Assembly (NCBI GenBank): GCA_022844105.1
Contig: JALHMJ010000002.1
Location: forward strand, 62,001 to 126,000
Source of the DNA: Hyphomicrobium sp.
GTDB lineage: Bacteria > Pseudomonadota > Alphaproteobacteria > Rhizobiales > Hyphomicrobiaceae
Reading direction: 5' to 3'
DNA length: 64,000 bases
Shown: positions 25,151-34,283 of the stretch, piece by piece
How positions within the stretch are numbered: the first letter of the stretch is position 1
Layout: each line of letters begins with the position of its first letter
Notes under the pieces: generated by a model
What the model saw: the letters and a program-made list of their open reading frames with translations, nothing else
Databases searched by the model: none
What the model was told of the DNA's origin: nothing
Made by a program: the position numbers and the translations under genes

Positions 25151-26635
25151 ATGTCATCAGCAGCAATCATAGAACTGCCCCGCCTTCCTCGTCTTACCGC
25201 CGGTTGGAGCGCTGAAGAAGGCAGTCTGGTCTCGCGCCACGTTCTCACGGGAATTGTCAGGTTAGCAGACGCGGCTATCGTTGCCATCGTCGGCCTGTCC
25301 ATCGCCCTGCTTTACGTCAGCGAGCCGATCGTTACGCGCGACGCAAACTATGGGCTCATTCTTGCCGTTGCGATGTTGATCACGGTCGGCGTCTTCCAGT
25401 CGCTCGGCCTCTATAATGCCGCCCGCTTCTCCTCGCTCATCGGCCAAATCCCGCGCGTCCTCCTCGGCTGGACCATGACCCTCGCCTTGGTCGGTGCCGG
25501 TCTCGTCTTCATGAAAGCCGCTCAGGAATATTCTCGCGTCTTCCTCGCCCTGTGGTTCGTCACCGGCAGCATGGCGCTGGTGGCCACCCGTGCCGGACTC
25601 ACTTATCTTGTCCGCATGTGGGCGCGCGAAGGCCGCCTCTATCGCCGTGCGGTGATCTACGGCGCGGGCCCGGTTTCGGAAAGTGTCATCGAGCAACTGG
25701 AGATGGATGCCGGCATCGACATCCGCATTTCCGGCATCTTCGACGACCGCAACGAAGAAGGCCGCGCGCCCCGTGTCATCGCTGGTTATCCGCGCCTGGG
25801 CGGCCTGCAAGAACTGCTGACACTTGCCCGTCAAAGCCGCATCGATCTCGTCATCGTGGCTCTACCCGTATGTGCCGAAAGTCGACTGTCGCAGATTGTG
25901 AAGCAACTGTCGGTTCTGCCTGCCGACATCAAGCTGCCAGCACGGGCAACATCCATTCGCTTCTCGCCGAAAACCTACAGTCATGTCGGCTCGGTCGCGA
26001 TGATCGATCTCTACGACAAACCCATTGCCGATTGGGGCACAGTTTCAAAATGGCTTTTCGACAAGATTCTCGCCGCCATCGCACTCATACTTCTGGCCCC
26101 GGTCATGGCAGCGGTCGCGCTGGCGATCCGCTGTGACAGCCGCGGCCCGATCCTATTCAAACAAAAACGGTACGGCTTCAACAACGATCTGATCGAGGTT
26201 TATAAGTTCCGCTCGATGTACGCCGACATGTGCGACGCCAAGGCAGCACGGCTCGTCACGAAGCAAGACCCGCGCGTCACGCGTGTCGGACGCTTTATCC
26301 GCAAGACGAGCCTGGACGAACTGCCCCAGTTGTTCAACGTGCTCAAAGGCAATCTGTCGCTCGTTGGGCCGCGCCCTCACGCGGTATCGGCCAAAGCCGC
26401 AAACCGGCTCTATGATCAGGTCGTCGATGGCTATTTCGCACGCCACAAGGTCAAGCCCGGCATCACCGGCTGGGCGCAGATCAATGGCTGGCGCGGAGAA
26501 ACCGACACGGCGGAAAAAATCGAGAAGCGCGTCGCGTGCGATCTTTATTACATCGAGCACTGGTCAATCGTGTTGGATCTCTACATTCTCCTGAAGACGC
26601 CGCTGTCGCTTCTGAAGGCCGAAAACGCCTACTGA
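25151..26635 (+). CDS. Undecaprenyl-phosphate sugar phosphotransferase (WcaJ/ExoY type)
   Basis: 494 residues. The N-terminal half has four membrane helices and a Rossmann-like CoA_binding_3 domain ([20 protein letters not shown], shortened). One further helix ([20 protein letters not shown]) leads into the catalytic Bac_transf domain with [34 protein letters not shown] and SLVGPRPHA. This enzyme starts the repeat unit by moving sugar-1-phosphate (often glucose) from UDP-sugar to undecaprenyl phosphate. It sits in the middle of the plus-strand block. ATG 25151 is the first Met. Confidence 0.9.
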
Positions 26636-26799
26636 ACTGCGCAACCCCAATGGTGCCGAAAACCGGCCCCGGTCACACGACCGGCGGCTGGCAAGCGTTG
26701 CAGGAAAGCTCTGCGCGCGACCATCCGCGCCCATTCCGGCCCGCCCTTTGCAATTGCCATTGGAAATGCATCCGCGATCATAGAAAGCGCGCAGGTTTC

Positions 26800-28044
26800 A
26801 TGTCTTTTGCGGCACATTCCATCCCGGTTCTGGACGCCACCCCGGCCGACCACCGAAAAAGCGCTGTTCACCTGATGACGCTGGCCGCCGTATGGCTGAC
26901 GTTTGCCGCAAGCGGCGTTGTCTTTTCCGAACCTGCGCCCGTCGACATTCTCTCCGCCGGGCTGATGATCCTCCTCCCGACCGTCGGCCTGATCCTCGTC
27001 ACGCCGCTGCTGCTCACCTACATCAGTCTATGGCTGGTCGCCGCATCCGGTGCCTATCTCGCGGCGACCGTGTCACGCGACCTCGCCGACAGCCTGACCC
27101 ACACGTCCGTCTCGCTGTTTTTATATCTCGTATCGTTTGTCATCGCAGCCTTCATCGCCCGCCGCCCCACGGCACACACAAAACTCATCTTCTCGGCCTG
27201 GATCTTCGCCGCCGTGATCGCCGCGAGCGCTGGTCTGGCGGGCTACACGCATGCCGTGCCCGGCGCCTATGAATTGTTCACGAAATTCGATCGGGTCGCT
27301 GGAACCTTCAAGGACCCGAACGTCTTCGGACCCTTCCTCGTGCCGCCATTCCTGTACTGTTTGCACCTCGCGATCACCCGATCGGCCACCAAGGCCCTTT
27401 TGCCGCTCGCAGGCGCCGGCTTTTTCGCGGTGGCGATCCTGCTCAGCTTCTCGCGCGGCGCCTGGGTCAACCTTGCGCTCGCCGCTGCGCTTTACGTTTG
27501 GCTCGCGTTCGTCACCGCATCGGGGCAATCACAGCGCACGCGCATCATCCTTTTGTCCACCATCGGCGCGCTGATCACCATTGGTGCCGTACTCGTTGCG
27601 CTACAGTTCGATACCGTCTCAAATTTGTTATCCCAGCGCGCCAGCCTGACACAGAGCTACGACGTCGGTCCCGATGGCCGCTTCGGCGGCCAGCAAAAAG
27701 CTCTTGATCTTATTCTCTCCAATCCGCTCGGCATTGGGGCACAGCAATTCACGCCGATCTATCATCACGAGGAGGTCCACAACGTCTTCCTCAGCATCGT
27801 CCTCAACGCTGGATGGATCGGCGGCGGAGCGTATTGGATCGTGGTCGGCCTGACGCTCGTACTCGGATTTCGTCATGCCATGCACGCGACCACCTGGCGC
27901 CCACTGTTCATCATCGCCTACGCAGGCTTCGCCGCAACTGCGTTCGAAGGCTGGATTATCGATTCCGACCACTGGCGGAGTTTCTACACTTTGATGGCCA
28001 TCGTCTGGGGCTTGATGTCGGCACCAACGCAGGAGGCGCGGTGA
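26800..28044 (+). CDS. O-antigen ligase/polymerase family membrane protein (Wzy/WaaL-like)
   Basis: 414 residues from ATG 26800, with AGG five bases upstream; an earlier frame start inside the previous gene is rejected. There are about ten to twelve membrane segments. FDRVAGTFKDPNVFGPFLVP followed by LLSFSRGAWVNLAL and the HHEEVHNVFLSIVLNAGW segment match the Wzy_C periplasmic loop and its conserved Arg and His. In this context it most likely polymerises the repeat units at the outer face of the inner membrane, although ligase activity cannot be excluded. Confidence 0.85.
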   Translation: MSFAAHSIPVLDATPADHRKSAVHLMTLAAVWLTFAASGVVFSEPAPVDILSAGLMILLPTVGLILVTPLLLTYISLWLVAASGAYLAATVSRDLADSLTHTSVSLFLYLVSFVIAAFIARRPTAHTKLIFSAWIFAAVIAASAGLAGYTHAVPGAYELFTKFDRVAGTFKDPNVFGPFLVPPFLYCLHLAITRSATKALLPLAGAGFFAVAILLSFSRGAWVNLALAAALYVWLAFVTASGQSQRTRIILLSTIGALITIGAVLVALQFDTVSNLLSQRASLTQSYDVGPDGRFGGQQKALDLILSNPLGIGAQQFTPIYHHEEVHNVFLSIVLNAGWIGGGAYWIVVGLTLVLGFRHAMHATTWRPLFIIAYAGFAATAFEGWIIDSDHWRSFYTLMAIVWGLMSAPTQEAR

Positions 28045-28512: not shown

Positions 28513-29004
28513 TCAGTCTGCTTCGTTGGCCGAATCTGAGTTGAGCAGACCGTAATTCTCGACGCCAATTCGCTGCAAGAGATCGAGTTGCGTCTCCAGG
28601 AAGTCGAGGTGTCCTTCCTCATCCTTCAGGAGATGTTCAAAGATGCCCATCGTTACGTAATCTTCGTGCTTGCGGCAGACGTCACGACCCCGCGTGTAGG
28701 TCTCGATGGCAATCTTCTCGCCCTTCATATCGCACTCGAGAACTTCCTTGATGTTCTCGCCGATCATGAGCGGTGCGACATGCTGAAGGTTTGGGAAACC
28801 GTCGAGATAGATGATGCGATCGATGATCTTGTCGGCGTGAACCATTTCCTCGATCGACTCGGCGCGTTCCTTCTTCGCCAGCTTGGTGTAGCCCCAGTTT
28901 GCGAGCAGCCTGTAATGCAGCCAATACTGGTTCACGGCCCCGAGTTCGAGCTTCAGCGACTCATTGAGGATGTCGATGATTTCTTTATTGCCCTTGCCCT
29001 TCAT
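28513..29004 (-). CDS. bfr: Bacterioferritin
   Basis: Bacterioferritin stores iron as a mineral in a 24-subunit shell. The 163-residue protein keeps the ferroxidase ligands Glu20, Glu53 and His56 (in [11 protein letters not shown]), plus Glu and His in [16 protein letters not shown]. Met54 is the axial heme ligand of true bacterioferritins. A strong ribosome site (GAGGAGA) precedes ATG 29004. bfd lies directly upstream on the same strand, 133 bases away, so storage and release of iron are encoded together. Confidence 0.96.
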
Positions 29005-29137
29005 GGGGTCGTTCTCCTCGATGCATTAATGGAAAAAATCAGCGCGGCGGACCCTACGTCATCCGAGCCGGACCCTTCAACAGATCCGGCGAGCGGACCG
29101 TCTCACATATTTGGAACGATTACAAAGTAGAACCCGA

Positions 29138-29485
29138 TCACCGGATCGCTTTATCACGCACCGCCACAGGCTCGGGCAGGACACGCGGCGTACCGCGCAG
29201 CGGACGCGATACGCGCCGCTCTGGCGCCGCCAGCAAATCCTTCATGCGAGTTTTGGCCGTCGCGCAAGCGCACGGGCAAATCAAGCCGCGCTGCTCAAGT
29301 TCTTCCATCTTTGCGTAAATCGTTTCTGCGGCCAACGGAGCACATCCGCAGCACTGCATTTTCTTCTGTAGATGCCGATATATAACGCCCGGAGTCGGCA
29401 GCGGAGCGTTGTCCTGACTCATCACCTCGAGTACGGCCTGCTCCAGGTCCCGATCCGTCACATACGCACAAGAACACACGATCAT
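29138..29485 (-). CDS. bfd: Bacterioferritin-associated ferredoxin-like protein with C-terminal extension
   Basis: 115 residues. The N-terminus carries the 2Fe-2S ligands of Bfd: Cys4 and Cys6 (IVCSC) and a later C-x-x-C in QCCGC (Cys45-Cys48). Bfd binds bacterioferritin and reduces the stored iron for release. The protein is nearly twice the length of E. coli Bfd: it adds a helix and a second Cys-rich patch ICPCACATAK near residue 70, then a basic tail. The start is followed by a normal frame, and a hairpin covers the ribosome site just upstream. Confidence 0.8.
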   Translation of the reverse strand: MIVCSCAYVTDRDLEQAVLEVMSQDNAPLPTPGVIYRHLQKKMQCCGCAPLAAETIYAKMEELEQRGLICPCACATAKTRMKDLLAAPERRVSRPLRGTPRVLPEPVAVRDKAIR

Positions 29486-29787: not shown

Positions 29788-30624
29788 ATGTCCCGGATCA
29801 AAACCAGTCTCGCGTCTTTGCTTCCGCCGGCAGACGGCCGCACCGGCGTCCTGCTGGTCCACGGACTGTGCGGCTCACCAGCAGAAATGCGGTTCATCGC
29901 CAATGGGTTGACCCGGTCGGGCTACATCGTCCATTGCCCGCAGCTTGCCGGCCACGGCGGCAGTGAAGCAGAATTGACGGCGACCCGTTGGCAGGATTGG
30001 TACGACAGCGCCGAGAAGGGCCTGGATGAGCTTTGCGCACGGTGCGATCGCGTCGTGGTCGGTGGCCTTTCCACCGGAGCCGTGCTCGCACTCATGCTCG
30101 CCGCCCGCCACCCGGACAAAATTTCCGGCCTCGCACTCTATGCTCCGACACTCTGGCTGAACGGTCGCAGCGTGCCGTGGTATGCCAGCCTCTTCCGCAT
30201 GGTTCGCAGTCGCAGGCTGGCCGCCCTCTTCCGTTTCCCGGCGCCGCATGACTTTGGTATCAAGGACGAGAGACTGCGGACATTCATCAAAGCCGCCCTG
30301 ACCGTGCCCGGCACGCCGGTCACCCCATTCGCGACTCCCGGCGTTGCCGTTCTCGAGCGCCATCGGCTGGTGGTCGCGCTCCTGCCCCACATCGCGTCGA
30401 TCCGGATGCCTGTGTTGATCCTACACCCCCGCGAAGACGACTACGCTGGCCTTTCGAACGCCACCCATCTGCAGAAATCCCTCGCCGGCCCCGTTCAGCT
30501 GGTGGTGCTTGAGGACAGCTATCACCTCGTTACGGTCGACCGGCAGCGCGACGTAGTGCTCGACCGCACCTTATGCTTCCTGGCCCAGATTGGCGACCGC
30601 CTGACGCAACGGGCAGCCGCATAA
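29788..30624 (+). CDS. Alpha/beta hydrolase (carboxylesterase/monoacylglycerol lipase-like)
   Basis: 278 residues from ATG 29788, preceded by GTGAGGAGCCTCG. VLLVHGLCGSPAE gives the HG oxyanion motif. VVVGGLSTGAVLAL holds the nucleophile elbow, a Gly-x-Ser-x-Gly type with Ser in GLSTG. HPREDDYAG supplies the acid and DSYHLV the His. The cap region is short, as in Est30-like carboxylesterases. No signal peptide is seen, so it is cytoplasmic and acts on an ester or acyl substrate not identifiable here. It stands alone, divergent from bfd. Confidence 0.85.
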   Translation: MSRIKTSLASLLPPADGRTGVLLVHGLCGSPAEMRFIANGLTRSGYIVHCPQLAGHGGSEAELTATRWQDWYDSAEKGLDELCARCDRVVVGGLSTGAVLALMLAARHPDKISGLALYAPTLWLNGRSVPWYASLFRMVRSRRLAALFRFPAPHDFGIKDERLRTFIKAALTVPGTPVTPFATPGVAVLERHRLVVALLPHIASIRMPVLILHPREDDYAGLSNATHLQKSLAGPVQLVVLEDSYHLVTVDRQRDVVLDRTLCFLAQIGDRLTQRAAA

Positions 30625-30762
30625 ACCTCATCAGATCAGCTGATTGCCAGACTTAGGCCTCCTGTTACCGCCGGAACAGCCGCACGGCGGTCGCTCAGGC
30701 ATATTGATCCCACTGACGGCCGCACGGCCAACCCGACGCCCAACGTAAAAATGGAGAGTGTC

Positions 30763-31389
30763 ATGTCCGCCAAGTATAGCACCGCAATCGCTGCCACGAT
30801 CGTTGCCGCCTCCATGGCCTTCACGACCACGACCGCCCAAGCCGGCCGTGGTCTCGGCCTTGGCATTGGCCTCGGCGTCCTGGCGGTTGGCGCCATGGCT
30901 GCGGCCTCCCAGGCCGAACAGCAGCGGGCTTACGAAGCAAAGCGAGCCCGTGCCGCCGCCGAAGCCCGTGCCCGGGCGCAGGCCAAAGCCGAAGCCCAGG
31001 CCCGCGCGAAAGCCGAGGCCAAAGCCCGCGCCATCGCGCAAGCCAAAGCAGAAGCCAAGGCCCGCGCTATTGCCGAAGCCAAGGCAGAAGCCCGCCGTGA
31101 AGCCGCTAAGGAAACGGTCGTGGCCGCCGCGACCGAAACCGTCGCCCCCGCCACGAGCGTCGAAACCCCCATCGCGACGGAAGCAACCAATCTGATGCCC
31201 GCCGAAACCACGGCCGCAACGACGACTGCCGCCAATACCGAGCCCGCTCCGGCGACCGTCGTCTCGAATGCGGAATCGCCCGCTACCACGTCTGCGACCG
31301 AGACCGGCTCAGACGAAACTGCGACGTCCACCGGTGAATGCCGCCGCTACATCCCCGCCGTCGGCGTCACGATCAACGTCGGCTGCTGA
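30763..31389 (+). CDS. Secreted Ala/Lys/Arg/Glu-rich repeat protein of unknown function
   Basis: 208 residues from ATG 30763 (GGAGAGTGTC upstream). A signal peptide ends near AQA-G27, followed by a glycine-zipper-like stretch GRGLGLGIGLGVLAVGAMAAA. Residues about 50-125 form a highly charged helix with near-perfect 12-residue repeats (AKAEAKARAIAQ, then AKAEAKARAIAE). A Thr/Ala/Glu-rich linker leads to a conserved-looking tail with a Cys at each end, ECRRYIPAVGVTINVGC. The Cys pair may form a disulphide. I recognise no family. It precedes an ABC ATPase and HlyD adaptor but is separated from them by a terminator. Confidence 0.75.
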   Translation: MSAKYSTAIAATIVAASMAFTTTTAQAGRGLGLGIGLGVLAVGAMAAASQAEQQRAYEAKRARAAAEARARAQAKAEAQARAKAEAKARAIAQAKAEAKARAIAEAKAEARREAAKETVVAAATETVAPATSVETPIATEATNLMPAETTAATTTAANTEPAPATVVSNAESPATTSATETGSDETATSTGECRRYIPAVGVTINVGC

Positions 31390-31439
31390 TCCGGCGGCCC
31401 GACAATCCGGCTACTCACGCCTGTTATCTCTTTCGAATA

Positions 31440-31467
31440 CCCCGGGAACCTCCTCCCGGGGTTTTTT
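31440..31467 (+). terminator. Rho-independent terminator after the repeat protein
   Basis: A perfect 8-base stem CCCCGGGA/TCCCGGGG with loop ACCTCC is followed by six T. It lies 51 bases after the stop codon. Confidence 0.9.
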
Positions 31468-31624
31468 CGATTCTATCCTCCGGCAAAAACAAATAACCGT
31501 GTGCCTGGAGGAACAGCGCACGCGCCGCAAATCAGTCAATGTGCCCAGCAACGAGACAAGACGATGCCGCGATCGACATCGCGCCCCCCCCCGCAGCAAC
31601 GGACTCACACGCCGAGGTACTTCC

Positions 31625-32338
31625 ATGTCTGTCGACCGTTCCGTCATCGTTCGCGCGCGCGGCATCACCAAGACGATTGCGACCGGCGCCGGCGATCTGA
31701 CCATCCTCAAAGGCGTCGACCTCGATCTCTATCCCGGCGAACTGACGCTCCTGATGGGACCGTCCGGCTCTGGTAAAACCACATTTCTGTCGATCCTCGG
31801 TTGCATTCTGACCGCCACTGAGGGCCACCTCACGATCAACGGCGAAGAAGCCGTGGGCCAGACCGCGGAAGGCCTCGCCGATTTACGCCGCCGCAACATG
31901 GGCTTCGTGTTCCAGGGATACAATCTGTTCCCCACGCTGACGGCGCTCGAAAACGTCTTGATGGCACTCGATGTGCGCGGCGCGCGTCTCGCCGATCCAT
32001 ATCAGGCCGCCCGTGATGCGCTCATCGGCGTCGGCCTTGCGCACCGGATCGACGCCTATCCCTCGAAGCTTTCAGGCGGCGAGAAACAGCGGGTCGCGAT
32101 CGCCCGTTCGCTCGCCGGCAATCCAGCTGTGGTGCTCGCCGACGAGCCGACCGCTGCGCTTGACAGCGAGAATGGCAAGGCCGTGATGGAATTGCTTGCT
32201 CGCGTGGGTCAAGACCCTTCGCGCGCCGTGCTCGCGGTTACCCACGATCATCGAACATTGAGTTACGCCGACCGCATCATCAAGATCGAAGACGGCCGCA
32301 TCGTCGGCGACGAGCGACCCAACGGGCTCGCAGCCTGA
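31625..32338 (+). CDS. ABC transporter ATPase, DevA/MacB/LolD type
   Basis: 237 residues from ATG 31625, with GAGG seven bases upstream; a longer frame reaching into the previous gene is rejected. Walker A is GPSGSGKTTF, the signature LSGGEKQR, Walker B VVLADEPTAALD, and the switch His lies in AVTHDHR. FVFQGYNLFPTLTALENV (shortened) is the Q-loop typical of the MacB/LolD/DevA group that drives lipid, peptide or polysaccharide export with an adaptor. It is followed by an HlyD adaptor gene, but no permease gene adjoins either of them. Confidence 0.88.
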   Translation: MSVDRSVIVRARGITKTIATGAGDLTILKGVDLDLYPGELTLLMGPSGSGKTTFLSILGCILTATEGHLTINGEEAVGQTAEGLADLRRRNMGFVFQGYNLFPTLTALENVLMALDVRGARLADPYQAARDALIGVGLAHRIDAYPSKLSGGEKQRVAIARSLAGNPAVVLADEPTAALDSENGKAVMELLARVGQDPSRAVLAVTHDHRTLSYADRIIKIEDGRIVGDERPNGLAA

Positions 32339-32398
32339 TCGAACCTTGCATCTGATCTCATCGCCTGCAGACAACCGACAACAAGGACACGCTGAGCC

Positions 32399-33424
32399 AT
32401 GAAAATAAACCTGGGTTTGTTGGTACTTGGCGGCGTCGCTGCCGTCGGCGCCTATCTGGCCTATGGCCAGTTCAGCGGCGCGGATCGCGCCCCAGCCCGT
32501 GCGGCGCCCGAAGCGGAAATCGCTTGGATTGCGGCCGCTCCTGCACGCGCCGAGCCCAAATCGGGCGAGATCCGCATCGGCACGGGCATCCTCGGCCGCG
32601 TCATCAAGGTGCATGCCGCGGTCGATGAGAAAGTCGAAGAGGGCGAACTCATCGTCCAATTGGACGACGCGGAAGCCCGCGCGCGGTTGACCTCCGCCGA
32701 AACACAGGCAGAAGCCCTGCGCGAAGAACGCGAGAAAGCATTCGCGTCTGGCCGCGAAGACGTCCGCAAGGCCGAAGACGCCATCTACTCCGCCGAACGC
32801 GCGGTGACCGGCGCCCGCATCGAACTCGACGGCGCTTTGATCGCCAAGCGCACGTCCAATGGATCTGAACAGTCGGTTAGTGAAGCGCGCAAGCGGCTGA
32901 CAGAGGCCAATGAGCGTCTCGAGCGTGAACGCCTTGCCTTTATCCGGGCCCAGTCGAAGGCAAATCTTCCCGCTCCGAGCAGTGCGGAAAGCGCCGTCAG
33001 CGCCGCGCGGACCGAAGTCCGCTTGGCTGAAGCCCTGCTCGACAAGACCCGCATCCGCGCACCGCTTGCCGGCACCGTTCTCCAAGTCAACGCAAAAGCC
33101 GGCGAGATCGTCGCGCCCAGCCCTGAAGCGCCCCTGATTGTCATGGGGGACATGTCGAGCATTCGCGTCAAGGCTGAAGTCGACGAGGGCGACATCTCAA
33201 AGATCACGGTCGGACAGAAGGTTTTCGTTCGCTCGCTGAGTTTTCCCGGCAAGGAATTCGACGGCACCGTCGCGAGTCTGGCACCGACGCTGGCCCAGCC
33301 GCGAATCGGCCCTCGCGGTCCTAAACGCCCCAACGATGTCGAGGTGCGTGAAGTCACGATCGACCTGGACGCCGCTTCTCCACTATTGCCGGGAATGCGC
33401 GTCGACGCCTTCTTTCGCAAGTAA
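32399..33424 (+). CDS. HlyD/RND-type periplasmic adaptor (DevB-like)
   Basis: 341 residues. An N-terminal anchor (LGLLVLGGVAAVGAYLAYG) is followed by a biotinyl-lipoyl-like half-domain (GRVIKVHAAVDEKVEEGELIVQLDD, shortened). A long alpha-helical hairpin rich in Glu, Ala and Arg follows (about 95-190), then the second lipoyl half TRIRAPLAGTVLQVNAKAGE and a beta-barrel ending at LLPGMRVDAFFRK. It should link an inner-membrane exporter to an outer-membrane channel. It follows the ATPase by 60 bases. The missing permease must be encoded elsewhere. Confidence 0.88.
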   Translation: MKINLGLLVLGGVAAVGAYLAYGQFSGADRAPARAAPEAEIAWIAAAPARAEPKSGEIRIGTGILGRVIKVHAAVDEKVEEGELIVQLDDAEARARLTSAETQAEALREEREKAFASGREDVRKAEDAIYSAERAVTGARIELDGALIAKRTSNGSEQSVSEARKRLTEANERLERERLAFIRAQSKANLPAPSSAESAVSAARTEVRLAEALLDKTRIRAPLAGTVLQVNAKAGEIVAPSPEAPLIVMGDMSSIRVKAEVDEGDISKITVGQKVFVRSLSFPGKEFDGTVASLAPTLAQPRIGPRGPKRPNDVEVREVTIDLDAASPLLPGMRVDAFFRK

Positions 33425-33809
33425 CGCCAAGTAATCTAGCGCAACGAATTGTGACAGCTGTTCACCATACAGCCTTCGGACGACAGACAAGATTAAAAAC
33501 GCGTCCTGAAAACCGCGGTTTTTTCTGTCGCAGCGGCGACAACGACACAGTTTTCGCCACCCAACTGTCGTAATTTCCTCGCTCAGTGATGTGTCGCCGG
33601 GAACTGTCACGGTGCCAGATGAGGCGCAGGGTTCATCGGACGCAACTAAGTTGGCAAAGCGGCTTTCGGCAGTGAAACGCTAACCGCATCGCCAGAGCAA
33701 AGCATGTGGGCATTGGACGAGATCCGGTGCCGAATCACACCCGTCCCGTGCTATTTCTAATGATGGCGTCGGGGTCCACGCACTGACGTTGAAGACGGAG
33801 ACCGCAGCT
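33425..33809. other. Intergenic region with nested inverted repeats
   Basis: 385 bases without a recognisable gene. CGACAGA (33481-33487) and TCTGTCG (33524-33530) enclose the perfect palindrome AAAACCGCGGTTTT (33509-33522), which runs into a T-rich stretch and may end the HlyD transcript. The remainder to 33809 probably contains the promoter of the next gene. Confidence 0.4.
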
Positions 33810-34283
33810 ATGACTTCTCATGCAACAGGATCGAGCACCGCGACATCCGGAGTCGTGACGCAGTCTGTCGTCAACCCGATCGATCCGTCCGACGTCCCAA
33901 CGGTTGCGGTACGTGAACTTGCCACCGCGCTCAAAGTTCTCGCCGACGACGTCATGGCCCTCGCCCGTGCGTCTGAATGGAGCGATGAAGATTTCCGCCG
34001 CGTCGAGCAGTACTTCTGGCAGCGATTTCCGCGCGACCGTCAGCGCAAAATCGCCGCCCTCGTTCGCCTGCGCAGTTTGATTGCCGTCTGCAAAGCCCGC
34101 CGCATGCAGAAGCTCATCGCCGAGCATGGCGCGCTCGCAGTCCAGTCGATTATCGAAGCGGCGGCATCAATGCGGCTCAACACAAGCTTCGGCTTCAGTC
34201 CGGTCAAGATTTCTTGCGCCGTTCTAGAATCTTTGCGGGACCCGTCGACCGGCATGTTTCGTGACGCCTCCGCCGCGGCCTGA
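33810..34283 (+). CDS. Protein of unknown function
   Basis: 157 residues from ATG 33810 (GGAG nine bases upstream); an in-frame TTG at 33789 would add seven. The first 25 residues are rich in Ser and Thr, and the rest is predicted helical: VRELATALKVLADDVMALAR, EDFRRVEQYFWQRFPRDRQRK and a basic, hydrophobic region VRLRSLIAVCKARRMQKLIAEHG (shortened). There is no signal peptide, membrane helix or known motif. It is monocistronic with a long upstream region. It might bind nucleic acid or a partner protein, but that is a guess. Confidence 0.6.
   Translation: MTSHATGSSTATSGVVTQSVVNPIDPSDVPTVAVRELATALKVLADDVMALARASEWSDEDFRRVEQYFWQRFPRDRQRKIAALVRLRSLIAVCKARRMQKLIAEHGALAVQSIIEAAASMRLNTSFGFSPVKISCAVLESLRDPSTGMFRDASAAA

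Follow-up and report, generated by a model that had tools for sequence, protein, structure and literature searches.

The question raised by this locus is which permease, if any, serves an ATP-binding cassette (ABC) transporter that seems to lack one. In a 64,000-nucleotide stretch of the genome of Hyphomicrobium sp. (GCA_022844105.1, contig JALHMJ010000002.1, positions 62,001 to 126,000; hereafter the window), genes for a DevA/LolD/MacB-type ATPase and a HlyD/DevB/MacA-type periplasmic adaptor follow a gene for a secreted repeat protein that ends in a cysteine-bounded tail. An earlier note on this DNA had described the three open reading frames (ORFs) in this way, and indeed no permease ORF lies between or beside those of the ATPase and HlyD. 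It had suggested that the pair might serve a permease encoded elsewhere, and this is supported: an orphan DevC-type permease is present on another contig of the same genome, and its ortholog stands directly 5' of the same pair in relatives. Furthermore, pump and tails nearly always co-occur across one family, which suggests that the tail is a mark of proteins that the pump handles or exports.

The permease came to light in a search of the window's genome (G000; genomes, genera, contigs and loci are given as G, g, C and L numbers) for the FtsX domain, which gave nine matches. The orphan DevC/MacB-type permease lies at G000:C18:22567-23778 and has 404 aa, with no ATPase or HlyD gene of the system beside it. 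Both its FtsX (PF02687, 48.3 bits) and MacB_PCD (PF12704, 46.8 bits) domains score above cut-off, the structure that AlphaFold2 predicts for it (mean pLDDT 81.5, 28 sequences) begins with a single helix, which is followed by a periplasmic domain and then by three helices, and the top folds returned by Foldseek for this model were MacB (5gko, E 5e-17) and LolCDE, with HrtB within the first 20. In the five other genomes of the genus the permease is kept at 86-90% identity, the ATPase at 89-92% and the HlyD at 86-91%. Judged on sequence comparison, the C18 permease is very probably the partner of the window ATPase-HlyD pair. Loss of the permease in the window's lineage was rejected in view of the intact ortholog at C18, and a tblastn search of the gap at 31381-31630 with the orphan permease found no remnant, the only matches being of 9 residues (E 1.1) and 26 residues (E 7.3). 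Contig C11 of the same genome carries a complete paralogous set of permease, ATPase and HlyD genes, whose ATPase and HlyD are 60% and 41% identical to those of the window; we call this unsplit paralogous system B-type and the system of the window and C18 A-type.

Relatives show the permease joined to the pair. A C18-type permease lies directly 5' of the orthologous ATPase-HlyD pair, with a tail gene on its other side, in G020 (73% identity) and G012 (65%), and the same linkage is found in H. zavarzinii ATCC 27496 (L095) and at L096, L097 and L102. At these last four loci the order is hydrolase, two Cys-tail genes, permease, ATPase, HlyD and the protein encoded at 33789 in the window, and the bacterioferritin gene, too, stands beyond the hydrolase as it does there. 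Since bacterioferritin gene, hydrolase, tail gene, ATPase, HlyD and 33789 protein are all shared with L095, the window site looks like a H. zavarzinii-type site minus the segment of tail gene and permease. Nor is the arrangement in the window due to chance, since the order of hydrolase, repeat gene, ATPase, HlyD and 33789 gene is kept in all five other genomes of the genus. Linkage to a permease in close relatives had been expected to point to simple loss; the linkage exists, but the gene has moved, together with a second Cys-tail gene, and has not been lost.

To see how general the split is, we read 30 A-type permease loci, on 30 different contigs, and 22 B-type loci, leaving out L089-L094 and L098 as duplicates of contigs of G001-G005, G018 and G015. 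The ATPase gene is immediately 3' of the permease in 19 of the 30 A-type loci and in 21 of the 22 B-type loci, the remaining B-type permease being at a contig end. Eight of the 11 A-type permeases with no ATPase directly 3' are split: they belong to all six genomes of the window's genus, in which tail gene and permease stand together on another contig, and to G009 and G018. In G010 and G105 the ATPase and HlyD genes are located 5' of hydrolase, tail gene and permease, and in G006 the contig ends. A tree of concatenated permease, ATPase and HlyD sequences (37 tips, some nodes with moderate support) joins each of two split lineages to an unsplit partner, the genus to G020 and G018 to the H. zavarzinii group, and places G009 outside those groups. 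Several separate splits, or one split plus re-joining, are needed. Gene order and tree indicate that this is a split of an ancestral operon and not a permease-less transporter; the new arrangement considered in the earlier note is new in being split, not in lacking a permease.

The segment on C18 carries more than the permease. The gene 57 bp 5' of it encodes a different small secreted protein, which ends in CRKFIPAVGSTVTVSCN; its tail, CRKFIPAVGSTVTVSC, and that of the window repeat protein, CRRYIPAVGVTINVGC, both have the form C-x14-C. A tail gene lies immediately 5' of the permease, on the same strand, in 27 of the 30 A-type loci and in none of the 22 B-type loci. Of the three A-type permeases with no counted tail gene, that at L234 has a weaker tail (11.6 bits), that at L233 (G040) has a run of N within the start of the permease ORF, and the third is at L116, described below. 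In a list from 103 genomes of the family, among the tails listed, at least 68 of 75 A-type permease places (the partial permease of G070, 64% identity, being excluded here) have a tail less than 1 kb 5' on the same strand, at a distance of 55-731 bases (median 187), and G076, G046 and G093 add three further permease places with a tail. The cut used in this list (468 bits or more for A-type, 466 or less for B-type) leaves a narrow margin; assignment of the 52 loci by best match gave the same classes, as did the A/B split in the tree, only some low-scoring A-type loci being among those read. The B-type exporter (L123 to L144, L148; e.g. G000:C11) has a neighbour of its own, a gene for a secreted DUF2147 protein being nearby in 21 of 22 loci.

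The geometry of the tail is strict. All 112 distinct tails have exactly 14 residues between the two cysteines, where the regular expression permitted 12 to 16 and the profile favours 14, and 110 of them have 0-4 residues after the second cysteine, with 8 at the exception L057; tails scoring above 15 bits were taken as distinct by their last 45 residues, near-identical orthologs being counted apart. The consensus is CKKFIPAxGxTVxVxC, and the tail may fold into a hairpin of two strands that turns at PAxG and is stapled by a disulfide. The bodies that bear it differ, ranging from Ala/Lys/Arg repeats to TPR (L241, L242) and proteins with a CISCEY-type start (e.g. L188, L200, L246), and a short N-terminal RLGFGFPLG-type motif is present in 18 of the 27 permease-adjacent tail proteins. 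Signal peptides were read by eye, and of 109 tail ORFs scanned in a crude way 104 had a hydrophobic core. Glycine at position +1, as in the cargo of the Aat system, was found after AxA in 24 of 104 tail proteins vs 7 of 80 other ORFs; the comparison was too crude and was set aside. For none of the tail proteins compared with Pfam (11) or NCBIfam (5) did a family's best stretch cover the tail, and no description of the tail or of the split system was found in the literature searched, mainly freely accessible papers. As far as these searches show, a tail family coupled to one DevC/MacB-type permease is undescribed; the exporter subunits themselves are members of already known families.

The census used a profile of 18 columns built from 33 tails, applied first to 40 relatives and then to 103 genomes of the family; here, as for permease, HlyD and the order and class samples, part of the first-look candidates was scored in some genomes (e.g. 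20 per genome for HlyD). The tail matched at E 0.001 or better in 78 of the 103 genomes, and the A-type system, counted where the C18-type permease (75 genomes) or the window-type HlyD (77) was found, is present in 80, G070 being included as A-type. In 97 of the 103 genomes transporter and tail are either both present (76) or both absent (21), leaving four with the system only (G040, G046, G093, G103) and two with the tail only (G063, G118). The earlier note had left room for the repeat gene not being conserved with the pair; the conserved gene order in the genus and this agreement contradict that. In genera g37, g38 and g40, which have members with and without the system, the tail switches along with no mismatch; g3 and g6 show the same joint switch apart from a single mismatch in each. 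Of the other four mismatches, g4, g7 and g13 account for one apiece and G093 (g11) is the last. Several of the discordant genomes have particular features. Tails were seen in G046 and G093 on reading the loci, both of which stay counted as misses. In G063 (L236, G063:C58) the tail is at the edge of a 3362-base contig; because its last 26 residues are those of the tail gene of G001 and the adjoining sequence is unrelated, contamination or misassembly (a chimera) is likely, and it is still counted as a mismatch. Equally counted as misses are G067, whose tail gene stops about 320 bases from a contig end that could hide a permease, G048 and G053, with the permease near a contig start, and G103, with HlyD near a contig start. 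Outside the family we found none: the 11 positives among 297 genomes sampled from the order all belong to the same family, and the single positive among 289 genomes sampled from the class is the window's own genome. Genomes carry up to seven tail copies at the threshold used, many of them unlinked; among the tails listed, 95 of 150 lie within 5 kb 5' of an A-type permease.

What might such a pump do with the tail proteins? MacB-type pumps take periplasmic substrates out through TolC, and the toxin STII arrives by Sec, gains disulfides and leaves via MacAB (PMC5985334). The Aat system secretes CexE/dispersin through a LolC/MacB-like permease; its cargo genes lie no more than 1 kb from the operon in some genomes and farther off in slightly more than half, and the cargo's N-glycine is acylated by AatD (PMC7943197). 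Corresponding parts are found for the window system: a permease of MacB fold, an ATPase, an adaptor and small Sec-type proteins adjoining the permease, with unlinked OEP channels as candidates for the outer membrane part (six OEP-domain matches at three places in G000, none near the window genes or the C18 permease). For this reason we consider most likely a MacAB/Aat-like exporter of Sec-delivered proteins in which the cargo bears a C-terminal recognition tail, and give the mechanism as a whole a probability of about 0.5. The permease gene has moved to C18 with one Cys-tail gene carried along, and the subunits would reassemble in trans, permease and ATPase in the inner membrane and adaptor in the periplasm, with a shared TolC-type channel as the outer membrane exit. 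Small secreted proteins such as the repeat protein would enter the periplasm via Sec, where closure of the two tail cysteines would give a disulfide-stapled hairpin; the periplasmic domain of the permease and the adaptor would recognise this tail, and an ATP-driven stroke would push the protein across the outer membrane, as MacAB does with STII and AatPABC with CexE/dispersin. The suggestion that the repeat protein is cargo or a surface partner is strengthened by the co-conservation, which falls short of proving a cargo role.

The system resembles MacAB-TolC in its permease, which has the same fold, the same domains (FtsX and MacB_PCD) and the same sequence of one helix, a periplasmic domain and three helices, in a MacA-like adaptor, for which the predicted model (pLDDT 81.4) matches the folds of EmrA and MacA, and in a LolD/MacB-type ATPase; here, however, ATPase and permease are separate polypeptides, even at separate loci, and a family of tail-bearing secreted proteins is associated with them. 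With Aat it shares a LolC/MacB-like permease, a LolD-like ATPase, an adaptor and small secreted proteins, Sec-dependent in Aat and predicted to be so here, that go with the transporter; aatPABC is one operonic unit in every example, and a shared C-terminal tail goes unmentioned, in the text of PMC7943197 available to us, whereas the system here is split. To our knowledge, the partners of C-terminal sorting tags in Gram-negative bacteria are proteases, transpeptidases or the type IX system. PEP-CTERM/exosortase, GlyGly-CTERM/rhombosortase and MYXO-CTERM resemble the present case in that one short C-terminal homology region is found on different secreted proteins and co-occurs with one membrane machine (PMC1569441, PMC3237569, PMC11980579); unlike those tags, the Cys-x14-Cys tail has no transmembrane helix and is paired with an ABC exporter, not with a protease or transpeptidase.

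Several observations weigh against a cargo-tag exporter. All three subunits score below the curated cut-offs of their nearest NCBIfam models, the permease against DevC (TIGR01185; E 7e-49, 166.7 bits, cut-off 290.35), the ATPase against DevA (TIGR02982; 224.6 bits, cut-off 295.8) and the adaptor against DevB (TIGR02971; 94.7 bits, cut-off 129), and DevBCA, the best-known relative, exports glycolipids (PMC8277102). The tail is not strictly terminal, since it is internal in a 1142-aa cyclase/PDZ/Sel1/peptidoglycan-binding protein (L232:5715-9143, G066:C13) and, in a weaker form (12.3 bits, below the 15-bit cut), at L240, where about 70 residues follow. The second A-type permease of G019 (L116) has no tail gene 5', and downstream of it is a DUF2147 protein with a diverged Cys-bounded end. 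G011 has an A-type ATPase-HlyD pair and a tail gene beside a hydrolase, with only a B-type permease found, and in its sister G118 the searches, at their thresholds, gave a tail and neither subunit; in their genus, g7 (G011: L146, L198; G118: L238, L239), a real loss of the permease is possible. Finally, the Fisher p of 7e-16 for the co-occurrence is only a rough guide, overstating independence because the 103 genomes are related.

The main alternative, which we consider unlikely, is that the split transporter exports a lipid or glycolipid like DevBCA-HgdD of heterocyst-forming cyanobacteria, the Cys-tail proteins being not cargo but partners, on the surface or in the periplasm, that bind what is exported or organise it. 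DevC, DevA and DevB are indeed the nearest models for all three subunits, at the scores given above; the order in unbroken relatives, permease-ATPase-HlyD, differs from B-C-A. A hydrolase resembling lipases often stands nearby, genes for a sugar transferase and an O-antigen-ligase-type protein (25151-28044) precede the locus in the window, and a more distant DevC-type permease (51-52% identity) in G018 (L120, G018:C114) adjoins a beta-ketoacyl synthase gene and a 2209-aa polyketide-synthase-like ORF. Lipid export alone, however, leaves unexplained why the tail gene is a more constant companion of the permease than the ATPase gene (27 vs 19 of 30) and why the same tail is found on unlinked proteins with other bodies. 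Clearly less probable still is a role of the permease-adjacent tail protein within the transporter, as an accessory or regulatory subunit in the periplasm for whose site its paralogs, the other tail proteins, would compete: the RLGFGFPLG-type motif speaks for this, since in those 18 of 27 copies both ends are conserved and the middle is variable, but the tail reaches seven copies per genome, often away from any A-type permease, on bodies that include TPR and others.

Less credible again is a co-localisation that is simply ancestral and has no functional meaning, the tail being a small domain common in the family. The genomes are related and the tail was found in one family only; the tail gene nonetheless stayed with the permease where the operon is broken (g1, G009, G018), in lineages placed among unbroken ones in the tree, and presence and absence switch jointly within several genera. 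The least probable alternative by a little, that the window pair has switched to the permease of the complete C11 system and left that of C18 as a relic, could appeal to the 60% identity of the two ATPases and to G011, where the A-type pair persists and the search turned up a permease of B-type only, but the C11 permease is a less likely partner, having its own ATPase and HlyD in a tight operon, and the C18-type permease is intact and well conserved in all five other genomes of the genus.

The features of the locus are collected in the table. The repeat protein, for which a second in-frame ATG is present at 30751, consists of a signal peptide, a Gly-rich hydrophobic stretch, the Ala/Lys/Arg/Glu-rich repeat, which is some 65 residues long, a linker rich in Thr and Pro, and the Cys tail. 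It matches no Pfam family, and in NCBIfam only TolA and EntB, below cut-off and in the low-complexity part. Orthologs are present in all five other genomes of the genus; their repeats differ in length, whereas the tail is near-invariant and few parts of the protein are as constant. The terminator-like hairpin between repeat gene and ATPase gene has the longest stem (9 pairs) of four sites in the scan, shuffled sequences averaging 3.8 sites; given this hairpin, the repeat gene and the ATPase-HlyD pair are probably separate transcription units and not one transcript.

Table. Features of the window locus (positions in the window)
Feature	Position	Strand	Remarks
Alpha/beta hydrolase (S33/monoglyceride-lipase-like)	29788..30624	+	PF12146/PF12697; first gene of the conserved neighbourhood
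Cys-tail protein 1 (repeat protein)	30763..31389	+	208 aa from ATG 30763
Signal peptide of repeat protein, probable cleavage AQA/G	30763..30843	+	Read by eye, without a predictor
Ala/Lys/Arg/Glu-rich repeat, helical by composition	30913..31113	+	Approximate bounds
C-terminal tail of repeat protein, C-x14-C	31339..31386	+	CRRYIPAVGVTINVGC; profile match E 2.7e-9, the tail being itself one row of the profile
Terminator-like hairpin and T run	31439..31470	+	Gap between repeat gene and ATPase gene; hairpin scan
DevA/LolD/MacB-type ATPase (A-type)	31625..32338	+	PF00005 above cut-off; TIGR02982 below
HlyD/DevB/MacA-type periplasmic adaptor (A-type)	32399..33424	+	PF16576, PF13437 above cut-off
Conserved protein, no Pfam or NCBIfam match	33789..34283	+	After the adaptor in many relatives' loci

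The hydrolase gene lies 5' of tail genes in many relatives, and a paralog 46% identical stands beside the C11 system. Divergent to it in the window are a ferritin-fold gene (PF00210, bacterioferritin-like) and a BFD-like gene (PF04324, below cut-off) at 28513-29485, and the ferritin gene keeps its position next to the hydrolase in H. zavarzinii (L095). Further 5', at 25151-28044, are the genes for a bacterial sugar transferase (PF02397) and an O-antigen-ligase-type protein (PF04932); relatives of both stand directly before the hydrolase and tail genes in G020 (L109). The surroundings of L120 are reminiscent of glycolipid or polyketide gene clusters.

These observations have a consequence for reading other genomes: an ATPase-adaptor pair with no permease beside it need not mean loss, since the permease gene stands apart in several lineages. 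More tentatively, and with somewhat less than an even chance in our view, the 16-residue disulfide-stapled C-terminal hairpin may be a general export or surface-sorting tag of the Hyphomicrobium family, read in the periplasm by one dedicated DevC/MacB-type exporter, so that a single transporter would handle several modular proteins in each genome (up to seven at the threshold used) and the pair of tag gene and permease gene would be the unit that is kept when the operon breaks. If true, this would be a short C-terminal tag read from the periplasm by a mechanotransmission-type ABC exporter; MacB-type pumps would gain a testable recognition signal, and Hyphomicrobium a pathway for its surface proteins.

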